Source of the DNA: Ignavibacteriota bacterium
GTDB lineage: Bacteria; Bacteroidota; Ignavibacteria; UBA10030
Length of the DNA stretch: 38,761 bases
NCBI GenBank assembly: GCA_003142575.1
Contig: PLMS01000069.1
Coordinates: 1,295 to 40,055 of the forward strand
Direction of reading: 5' to 3'
The number at the start of each line of letters is the position of its first letter. Positions within the stretch are counted from its first letter, which is position 1. The notes under the pieces are model-generated. The model worked only from the letters and a program-made list of their open reading frames with translations, was not told the DNA's origin and did not search any database. Both the position numbers and the translations under genes were made by a program. Positions 4,224-26,254 of this stretch are shown here, piece after piece.

Positions 4224-4244
4224 AGAAGACTTGGTATGCACAGG

Positions 4245-4269
4245 AAAACCCGCAGCGAGCAGGCTTTTT
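4245..4269 (+). terminator. Weak terminator-like hairpin after the U32 gene
   Basis: An imperfect stem (CCCGC with GCAGG, one mismatch, loop AGCGA) is flanked by AAAA on the left and CTTTTT on the right, 22 bases after the U32 stop codon. The mismatch and a bulge keep confidence low. Confidence 0.3.
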
Positions 4270-4275
4270 GTTGTG

Positions 4276-4339
4276 TGCACCCGGAGGGAGTCCCCGCCTG
4301 AACGGCTGACGCCAGTCAGGCGGGCAGGGAACCCCCAAC
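4276..4339 (-). repeat. tRNA-Arg 3'-end remnant, split by a hairpin
   Basis: Bases 4276-4292 plus 4329-4339 reproduce, without mismatch, the 28 bases at the 3' end of the intact tRNA-Arg gene (T-arm, 3' acceptor strand and part of the variable loop). Two further flanking bases also match. The two parts are separated by 36 inserted bases (4293-4328). The remnant has the same orientation as the tRNA and lies just beyond the GIY-YIG gene. This is the position expected of the distal attachment-site copy left when an element integrates into a tRNA 3' end. Confidence 0.85.
4293..4328. repeat. GC-rich hairpin inserted in the tRNA remnant
   Basis: A 36-base insertion begins with a perfect 9-bp inverted repeat (CCCGCCTGA at 4293-4301, TCAGGCGGG at 4316-4324). 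It has an alternative inner stem CTGAC/GTCAG and ends in CAGG. It interrupts the tRNA fragment exactly, with no loss of tRNA bases. Two comparable hairpins interrupt repeats at 15799-15822 and 15857-15886, so it probably belongs to a family of small palindromic elements. Confidence 0.75.
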
Positions 4340-4358
4340 TATATATGAATTCTTAATA

Positions 4359-4610
4359 TCACAAACGCTTAAGAAAACGCCTACCAGCGGCAGACTTAAA
4401 ATACTTCTTTCGTTTACGAGCTTCCACAAGTGTTTTGGCAACCTCTTGATAAATGAGTATGAATGGTCGTCGTCTCTTTGTGGATTGTACTTTACCATCG
4501 TTATGCATCTTAAGACGCTTCTCAACATCAGATGAAAGACCAGTATAGTGCTTATGATCAACGAGACTTTGTAGCATGTAAGTACTATATTTGCTTGATG
4601 AACCTTTCAT
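4359..4610 (-). CDS. Small GIY-YIG nuclease-domain protein
   Basis: An 83-residue single-domain GIY-YIG protein of the UPF0213/free-standing type. The motif residues are in place: YML at 11-13 (GIY position), YTG at 22-24 (YIG position), Arg32 and His36 in KRLKMHN, and Glu63 in VEARKRKK, so it looks catalytically intact. It has no added DNA-binding domain. The ATG lies only 20 bases after the 3' end of tRNA-Arg on the same strand with no Shine-Dalgarno, so it is probably expressed, if at all, from the tRNA transcript. It lies between the intact tRNA and a displaced copy of the tRNA 3' end, which suggests it arrived as, or rides on, a small integrated element. DNA substrate and function are unknown; homing-like or repair roles are both possible. 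Confidence 0.88.
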   Translation of the reverse strand: MKGSSSKYSTYMLQSLVDHKHYTGLSSDVEKRLKMHNDGKVQSTKRRRPFILIYQEVAKTLVEARKRKKYFKSAAGRRFLKRL

Positions 4611-4630
4611 TGATATAGAATTAAAGTCTG

Positions 4631-4704
4631 TGCACCCGGAGGGAGTCGAACCCCCAACCTACAGCTCCGTAGGCTGCCGCTCTATCCAATTGAGCTACGG
4701 GTGC
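4631..4704 (-). tRNA. tRNA-Arg (anticodon ACG)
   Basis: The minus strand folds as a full cloverleaf of 74 bases. The acceptor is GCACCCG with CGGGTGC and discriminator A. The D-stem is GCTC/GAGC. The anticodon stem GCAGC/GCTGT carries loop CTACGGA, and a T-arm with TTCGACT follows. Anticodon ACG would be edited to ICG and read CGU, CGC and CGA arginine codons. The CCA end is not encoded, so it must be added after transcription. Its 3' end is duplicated at 4276-4339, beyond the adjacent GIY-YIG gene. Confidence 0.97.
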
Positions 4705-4797
4705 AAGAAAACATCTAATAAAAAATATATCAAAAAAATTGAATATTTGCAATGACTGCACGTAATCTTAAAGAGAAAGGTTAGGGAAGGGGAAACC

Positions 4798-4895
4798 TCG
4801 TAGGGATTTGATTCATCAAATCCCCATGGTGAAGGACGTGATAGCTCAAAAGAGATGTGATGAATCAAAAGGACGTGATGAATCACGTCCCTACG
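4798..4895. repeat. Composite palindromic element (MITE-like)
   Basis: A 98-base non-coding block is bounded by inverted ends CGTAGGGA and TCCCTACG. It contains two strong palindromes: 4803-4824 (10-bp arms GGGATTTGAT/ATCAAATCCC) and 4871-4890 (9-bp arms GGACGTGAT/ATCACGTCC). The half-motif GATTCATC or GATGAATC occurs three times. It fills most of the 295-base gap between tRNA-Arg and the DUF2723 gene. No ORF or transposase is present, so a non-autonomous dispersed palindrome is the best description. Confidence 0.65.
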
Positions 4896-5000
4896 ATCGT
4901 CTCCACGGCAGGAAAGAAAGAATCATTTATACGTTCATTCTTTTCTGATTTCTTCTTATCATGATACAGCAATTATCAAACAATCGGGAACATATCCACA

Positions 5001-26206: not shown

Positions 26207-26230
26207 AGGGCGCCTCTAATAAATCAAGTT

Positions 26231-26254
26231 CCTCCAAAGGAGTCCCTTTGGGAC
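26231..26254. repeat. Double hairpin after sucD
   Basis: Two short overlapping palindromes: CTCC-AAA-GGAG and GTCCC-TTT-GGGAC (26242-26254), 25-48 bases after the sucD stop. They lack a following T-run, so they look more like dispersed palindromes than a terminator. Confidence 0.45.

Follow-up and report, generated by a model that had tools for sequence, protein, structure and literature searches.

The window, by which the whole 38.8-kb stretch of DNA analysed is meant, carries a compact unit at a tRNA-Arg(ACG) gene. On the minus strand the tRNA gene is followed by an 83-aa GIY-YIG frame and then by a distal, partial copy of the tRNA (4339-4275). The features of the locus are as follows:

4630..4704, minus strand: intact tRNA-Arg(ACG), the host gene and proximal copy (ARAGORN; Rfam RF00005, 67 bits)
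4359..4610, minus strand: GIY-YIG nuclease gene, 83 aa, UPF0213/SLX1-like, with Lys68 in place of the conserved Glu (PF01541)
4329..4339, minus strand: 5' block of the distal partial tRNA copy, tRNA positions 47-57 (exact match)
4293..4328, minus strand: 36-nt hairpin that splits the partial copy in its T-loop, precisely at GTTC^GA (folding)
4275..4292, minus strand: 3' block of the distal partial tRNA copy, tRNA positions 58-75 (exact match)
4225..4274, minus strand: native 3' flank of the tRNA gene (flank comparison with genomes G004 and G005)

This layout of tRNA-Arg, GIY-YIG gene and hairpin-split 3'-end copy, with its coordinates, had been described in an earlier note on this DNA and was confirmed by ARAGORN, Rfam, PF01541 and exact matching. 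The GIY-YIG frame matched PF01541 with an E value of 1.2e-10 (42 bits; cut-off 22.6) and was the sole gene between the two tRNA-Arg copies; no integrase gene was present between them. The tRNA-Arg(ACG) itself was uninterrupted, and its distal copy was split at GTTC^GACT by the 36-nt insert (fold -25.4 kcal/mol, z -4.6), a position occupied by a different hairpin in genomes G002 and G003. The flank at 4225-4274 precedes the convergent end of a neighbouring gene, which we take to be a U32-type peptidase. Searched against Rfam at E values up to 1, the window locus returned, besides the tRNA, a single antisense hit well under its cut-off, and neither a group I or group II intron nor an RNA of another Rfam family; 15 other loci searched at gathering cut-offs returned two tRNAs and nothing else. 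Self-protection through recoding of the rebuilt tRNA was not seen, the intact and partial copies in the window being identical over 29 nt. Palindromic repeats (GTAGGGATTTGATTCATCAAATCCC and GGACGTGATGAATCACGTCC) were also observed upstream of the tRNA at 4790-4905, and similar ones lie behind a tRNA-Ser in G003 (L168).

The locus was compared among six genomes of the genus, G000 (the genome of the window; 3.28 Mb, 152 contigs) to G005. In G002 an element occupied the same, syntenic place. In G004 and G005 the tRNA-Arg(ACG) was single and was followed directly by the flank that in the window (4225-4274) lies behind the distal copy; the empty site anticipated by the earlier note is thus present in both, and the upstream neighbour differs from that of the window at least in G004. 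The earlier note had counted against mobility any relative that lacked the nuclease gene and kept the distal copy. G003 is such a relative, having a degenerate distal piece at tRNA-Arg(ACG) and no nuclease, and because G004 and G005 are empty this piece is read as a relic. The G001 contig ends 98 bp behind its tRNA-Arg(ACG). The seventh acceptor pair of this tRNA is G-C in G000, G001 and G002 and A-T in G003, G004 and G005 (window 4630-4704 versus L258-L261), a difference that tracks either element presence or descent.

Two further sites showed both states within the genus. At a tRNA-Ser(CGA)-Ser(GGA) pair, located in the six genomes via its upstream flank, G003 and G005 were empty, G000 and G002 carried an element with the nuclease gene behind the tRNA and a 3' partial copy beyond it (layout UP: tRNA, nuclease, 3' partial copy), and the mirror layout (DN: 5' partial copy, nuclease, tRNA) occupied Ser(GGA) of G004 and Ser(CGA) of G001. 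At tRNA-Leu(CAA), G004 and G005 were empty, with an upstream flank common to both, and G000, G002 and G003 were filled; the neighbourhood of this tRNA differs in G003 and partly in G002. The nuclease gene of the window matched that at tRNA-Arg(TCG) of G003 at 206/234 nt (88%), with a host gene at 914/1200, and matched its syntenic counterpart at tRNA-Arg(ACG) of G002 at 160/249 nt (64%), with the host gene at 1074/1200. This mismatch between nuclease and host-gene identity shows that the element has passed between species and from one tRNA gene to another.

Ten PF01541 matches were found in G000, of which three were located directly behind a tRNA, Arg(ACG), Leu(CAA) or Ser(GGA), each with a partial copy of the 3' part of that tRNA on the far side. 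In the Ser copy a hairpin pair interrupted the T-loop at the same point (GTTC^GAAT), and the Leu copy began in the anticodon arm and was interrupted behind that arm. All of the 41 genomes searched (G000 and 40 related genomes of the order) contained PF01541 matches. A set of 121 distinct GIY-YIG genes (set A) was compiled from 109 loci (L016-L124) among the matches listed, together with the loci of the window's own genome, most frames of UvrC length being left out. Two profiles divided the set into 69 genes of the window's subgroup and 52 of a second subgroup; the former profile gave six matches in G000, three of which were the tRNA-linked genes. A tRNA was present within 300 bp of 57/69 genes in the window's subgroup versus 2/52 in the second (Fisher p 1e-19), a contrast that is partly circular, the profiles having been built from 21 tRNA-linked proteins and from 28 proteins chosen by motif, respectively; the overall proportion, 59/121, is free of this circularity. 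All 75 tRNA-gene pairings within 300 bp in this set were co-oriented. The GIY-YIG genes lacking a tRNA that the earlier note had considered adverse to its reading do exist, as 50/52 genes in the second subgroup and 12/69 in the window's subgroup, and several of these 12 lie in arrays, at contig ends or beside a partial tRNA.

When the phylum was searched with the subgroup alignment, 87/148 genomes gave matches, other subgroups being included in part. Loci were taken from the upper part of the match list with preference for single-contig genomes and arrays, and in this set (set B), whose rate is biased accordingly, a tRNA was present within 300 bp at 51/64 loci, or 47 of 60 distinct places, since 4/64 were second fetches of one place; five loci repeating set A had been dropped. 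The tRNAs of set B were co-oriented with the nuclease gene in 57/57 cases, repeats included. The same alignment matched 98/145 genomes of a second phylum, which we take to be Patescibacteria from the title 'Candidatus Nomurabacteria' of one record (L178). Among the 31 loci with the best matches there, 21 had a tRNA within 300 bp, with 23/23 pairings co-oriented and a partial copy scoring at least 20 in 10/21 of the tRNA-linked loci. In a single-contig assembly of 3.67 Mb (G172), three identical tandem units preceded tRNA-Ser(UGA) and three preceded tRNA-Pro(CGG), and in another genome (G098; L214) eight nuclease genes stood in tandem within 4.2 kb, every one with a 3' tRNA piece behind it, and no whole tRNA was called there. 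These arrays speak against assembly error and fit repeated insertion or unequal recombination. The presence of the same layout at dozens of loci places the 3'-end duplication beyond chance, and the further cases at other tRNA genes that the earlier note had proposed to look for were found widely, with 3' as well as 5' copies.

Partial copies were sought within 400 bp of the nuclease gene (350 bp in one analysis), with tRNAs sought within 300 bp. A partial copy scoring at least 20 was found for 83/106 tRNA-linked genes placed on the tree described below, and none for 23/106; the null distribution, which includes pairs of loci that share a tRNA, had its 95% point at 18 and a maximum of 74, and some of the copies scoring 20-25 may be due to chance. 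The two layouts obeyed a simple rule of ends: 52/58 UP copies reach the 3' end of the tRNA and 23/25 DN copies begin at its 5' end, leaving 8/83 copies that break the rule. Insertion accompanied by restoration of the tRNA must produce just this pattern, whichever side it comes from. At the end of contig C112 of G000 (L002:1-230), two 5' tRNA pieces and palindromic sequence were noted by eye before an apparent tRNA-Arg(TCG) in the absence of a nuclease gene; these are perhaps the relic of a DN element.

An insertion or replacement was detected in 73/83 partial copies and none in 10/83, and 40 of the 83 had one or more clean insertions between adjacent bases of the tRNA. Of the 49 clean sites, 19 lay in the T-loop, 10 in the D-loop, 8 in the anticodon stem, 5 in the anticodon loop and 7 elsewhere, GTTC^GA making up 15/49. 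UP and DN elements of one tRNA can share a site, such as Ser(GGA) 70/71 or Pro(GGG) 31/32, besides using others. In the first 50 elements analysed, 36 had inserts, 48 in all, of which 32 folded with z <= -2 and 39 had at least 60% of their bases paired. Several inserts of 22 or 30 nt consisted of two abutting hairpins whose loops are complementary or nearly so, e.g. TCCCGAAGGGA-TCACTTCGTGA. The Ser and Arg hairpins of G000 have sequences different from those of G002, with pairing retained. Exact blocks covered 87% of the tRNA span over the 83 copies (median 94%), figures that are flattering in that they count exact blocks of at least 8 alone. Because the copies are well kept around the plugs, we take the plugs to be not simply decay.

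Double hairpins also occur apart from tRNAs, and one of the plug type stands alone at 26229-26253 of the window, apparently in an intergenic region. A strict scan, which demands perfect stems, counts overlapping variants separately and cannot itself prove covariation, gave 39 double hairpins per 23.7 kb on the partial-copy side, 25 per 50.5 kb beside nuclease genes for which no tRNA was called, 28 per 106 kb at distant positions and 8 across the 38.8 kb of the window. Such pairs are enriched on the partial-copy side and are not exclusive to it.

A FastTree tree of 152 subgroup proteins included 106 with a linked tRNA, representing 13 amino acids and 27 isoacceptors, so that the tRNA-Arg-specific target suggested by the earlier note was not borne out. 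On this tree, which was built on 78 columns and leaves 70/147 inner branches open, the tRNA amino acid changed 27 times versus a mean of 70.2 and a minimum of 65 in 300 shuffles, and the host family, known for 105, changed 55 times versus a shuffle mean of 64.8 and minimum of 59. The signal of tRNA identity is strong and that of the host weak but real, and descent therefore plays a part. That nuclease and tRNA piece are inherited together is not enough to show that the protein recognises tRNA sequence, because the piece travels with the nuclease as a homology arm.

By profile comparison the closest relatives of the nuclease were UPF0213 structures (1zg2, E 1.6e-15; 1ywl, E 4.5e-15), followed by SLX1 (2.5e-9 to 2.4e-7) and, marginally, I-TevI (0.015). 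An AlphaFold2 model from six sequences had a pLDDT of 90.7; its fold matches were UPF0213 (1zg2, E 7.3e-4, the sole one below 0.001), SLX1 (2.1e-3 and weaker) and, more weakly, I-TevI. The protein is about 85 aa in length, with no second or separate DNA-binding domain; in the window's nuclease PF01541 was the only domain found, with no RAYT (Y1 transposase) domain. The window protein retains the Tyr, Gly, Arg and His of the family and has Lys68 where 149/150 aligned subgroup members have Glu, a residue that we presume to be catalytic. Because of this replacement in an otherwise well-kept sequence, the window copy, a GIY-YIG member by fold, is probably inactive and fixed, and the gene called intact in the earlier note has an open frame and probably no function. 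In seven of the nine pairs with a ratio examined, dN/dS was finite at 0.06-0.31, indicating purifying selection; the other two pairs had infinite dS (one being misaligned), and two of the finite pairs were saturated, with dS above 2.

With the Leu-linked protein as query, no match was obtained in 72,556 plasmid records, and 50,697 phage records yielded 10 Rhizobium phage records at 44-46% identity, none of which covers 80% of the query; no annotated tRNA was present in 3.2 kb of one of these records. No relatives were found in viral contigs. Carriage by phage or plasmid was rejected on the basis of these searches. Three proteins had no match in PHROGs, NCBIfam returned one match far below its cut-off, and PADLOC returned weak partial matches (E 0.002-0.007).

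Some genes of this kind lie outside tRNAs. Four of the 12 tRNA-less members of the window's subgroup (L060:758-958, L063:718-927, L069:775-975 and L079:770-970) have inverted repeats instead, of the kind TATCTCACGGGGTGAA. In L063 and L079 the nuclease gene, with short inverted repeats at the element ends, is situated between pieces of a tyrosine-recombinase gene, the frames on its two sides having Phage_integrase and SAM-like domains, except that the 49-aa piece downstream in L063 had no Pfam match. The position of these two inside split recombinase genes shows that the same kind of nuclease gene inserts into protein genes too. Members of the second single-domain subgroup (L006, L007, L008, L010 and others) are mostly not tRNA-linked and have dispersed palindromes on their flanks, for instance GTCATTGCGAGGA or CTGAGCGAAGTCGAAGG. 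A third GIY-YIG lineage, starting with WFYILRL or WFYMLRL, is found 130-540 bp behind tRNA-Asn and co-oriented with it (L084, L087, L109, L112), with no clear partial copy.

Several known systems resemble the element in part. UPF0213/COG2827 (1zg2, 1ywl) shares its fold and size and provides the best profile matches, and no function or tRNA link of that family was found in the open-access literature. SLX1 is the second family by profile and by fold; it is eukaryotic, partners SLX4 and is not known to be mobile. Integrative islands that target tRNA genes likewise insert at a tRNA gene and leave one whole tRNA with a partial copy at the far side, but the bracket in the window has no integrase and the element is about 0.4 kb and comes with both 5' and 3' partial copies, which contain hairpins.

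The closest functional parallel is SegB, a free-standing GIY-YIG homing endonuclease of T-even phages that cuts inside tRNA genes and occurs with many tRNA isotypes (PMC13096335; PMC2988022). The earlier note had thought a tRNA target for a GIY-YIG gene to be new, a claim that SegB qualifies. The motif RAWTSGAAC is given for 23/83 SegB cut sites, and SegB activity is described as required for tandem amplification via breaks and recombination (PMC13096335). The complement of this motif, GTTCSAWTY, falls in the T-loop, the place of interruption in many of the partial copies; GTTCGACTC of the window departs from it at one position, and the account of SegB gives no cut position within the motif (PMC13096335). 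As with SegB, a GIY-YIG gene adjoins tRNA genes and alleles without the element exist (the empty Arg, Ser and Leu sites), whereas SegB is a phage protein of 221 aa and the elements here are chromosomal, encode about 85 aa and include a hairpin-broken partial tRNA. T4 segB lies 5 bp from tRNA-Arg, with no partial tRNA copy within 200 bp. The similarity between SegB and the subgroup was weak (hhalign probability 34, 64 columns). In CPR bacteria, insertions encoding GIY-YIG proteins, unlike group I or II introns, have been reported in rRNA genes; most of the rRNA insertions described there are situated at the top or base of stem-loops, and the GIY-YIG inserts were judged by the authors to lie outside spread by homing, with no sign of homing (PMC11270868). 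These too are GIY-YIG genes in structural-RNA genes, but the RNA is rRNA, and the word tRNA is absent from that text (PMC11270868). No description of a chromosomal GIY-YIG element lodged in a tRNA gene was found in the open-access literature searched. In outline the elements appear to match the homing-endonuclease kind, in a chromosomal tRNA form for which we found no published description.

The observed anatomy, recurrence, empty sites, movement and co-inheritance with tRNA identity are best explained, with a probability that we put at about 0.7, by a minimal homing-like mobile element of about 0.4 kb, made up of a single-domain GIY-YIG gene and a partial copy of the tRNA gene that it occupies. 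In the proposed cycle the nuclease would cut tRNA genes in the loops of their arms (in the window in the T-loop, at GTTC^GA), and the break would be repaired by homologous recombination from an element-bearing copy, with conserved tRNA sequence serving as homology. Repair would copy the nuclease gene into the tRNA gene and leave one complete tRNA and one partial copy, the latter being, according to the side, the 3' part behind the nuclease, as in the window, or the 5' part before it. The hairpins would plug the loops at the presumed cut sites, so that the partial copy would be neither a tRNA nor cleavable, and the same recombination could yield tandem arrays, relics and loss. The earlier note's proposal of a minimal mobile unit whose nuclease targets the tRNA thus holds for mobility and tRNA linkage, on the evidence of the empty sites, the 27 isoacceptors, the mirror layouts, the incongruent inheritance and the tandem arrays; targeting by the nuclease itself we infer.

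Several observations weigh against this homing-like reading. The presumed site is interrupted in the partial copy and kept in the intact tRNA, and since the regenerated tRNA retains it, a sequence-specific nuclease should still cut the host. The window copy lacks the conserved Glu, and a protein of about 85 aa has no separate DNA-binding domain. In addition, 23/106 genes have no partial copy scoring at least 20 (in the second phylum only 10/21 have one), 12/69 have no tRNA within 300 bp, and the distal piece in G003 has no nuclease. The weak similarity to SegB, the lack of a partial tRNA copy beside T4 segB, the host signal on the tree, the 10/83 copies with no insertion detected, the 8/83 that break the rule of ends and the judgement of the CPR authors on homing count against it as well.

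Among the rivals, it is conceivable, though unlikely, that the palindromes drive the process: dispersed double-hairpin repeats would enter the loops of stem-loops, with the GIY-YIG protein as a helper, as RAYT is for REP, and the tRNA copies as accepting sites. The two-hairpin inserts that plug D-, anticodon- and T-loops, the pairs found elsewhere (window 26229), the other dispersed palindromes flanking the sister GIY-YIG subgroup and the fact that, after UPF0213, the nearest solved relatives belong to SLX1, a structure-specific nuclease, all favour such a process, which nevertheless leaves the partial tRNA copy, the rule of ends and the regenerated tRNA unexplained and has to contend with double-hairpin pairs being densest on the partial-copy side (39 per 23.7 kb). 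Rather less probable is a domesticated function. The nuclease, whose gene is probably transcribed together with the tRNA, would then benefit the cell, for instance through amplification of tRNA genes when toxins that cleave tRNA attack, as SegB does for its phage. Tandem arrays, purifying selection, fixed orientation and some host signal on the tree would agree with a cellular role; presence, however, is patchy within the genus, the tRNA used changes, the arrays multiply the nuclease and a broken tRNA piece instead of the intact tRNA, and the window copy lacks the conserved Glu.

It is very improbable that the locus is the relic of a larger, integrase-driven island, a possibility raised in the earlier note that gained no support within the distances searched (up to 300 bp for tRNAs and 400 bp for partial copies, so that long forms would be missed). 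A duplicated tRNA 3' end is the usual footprint of a tRNA-targeting integrase, yet the window's bracket contains no other gene, 27 isoacceptors carry the compact form, duplications of the 5' end occur as regularly as those of the 3' end, and hairpin plugs are not known to belong to att sites. Chance adjacency or an assembly artefact, which might be suspected from the many nuclease genes at contig ends in draft genomes, can be practically dismissed given an element that is syntenic in G000 and G002, occurs in a single-contig assembly of 3.67 Mb and recurs in two phyla.

The minimal homing-like element may represent a widespread and previously undescribed class of selfish DNA of minimal size, present in Patescibacteria as well as in the phylum of the window, in which an SLX1-like nuclease of 85 aa copies itself into the arms of tRNA genes; we advance this wider view tentatively and regard it as possible and not as probable. 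It would have the tRNA arms read as DNA structure or as sequence with one whole tRNA left, the paired-hairpin plugs being a product or a required part of the cycle. Lineages would be largely dedicated to one kind of tRNA, with the tRNA genes of a genome acting as parallel homing sites, and the inverted-repeat relatives would have invaded protein genes such as those of tyrosine recombinases. The system can be tested directly: it needs a single short protein and one tRNA gene, the cut site is predicted (GTTC^GA), and nature supplies both empty sites and, in the window's copy, a Glu-to-Lys variant. If the homing-like reading is right, many small free-standing GIY-YIG genes would be homing-like parasites of tRNA genes, and the elements would rank among the smallest autonomous mobile elements. 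They would account for hairpin-bearing tRNA fragments that mislead annotation and interrupt assemblies, and would demonstrate that a parasite can occupy an essential gene with neither an intron nor an integrase.
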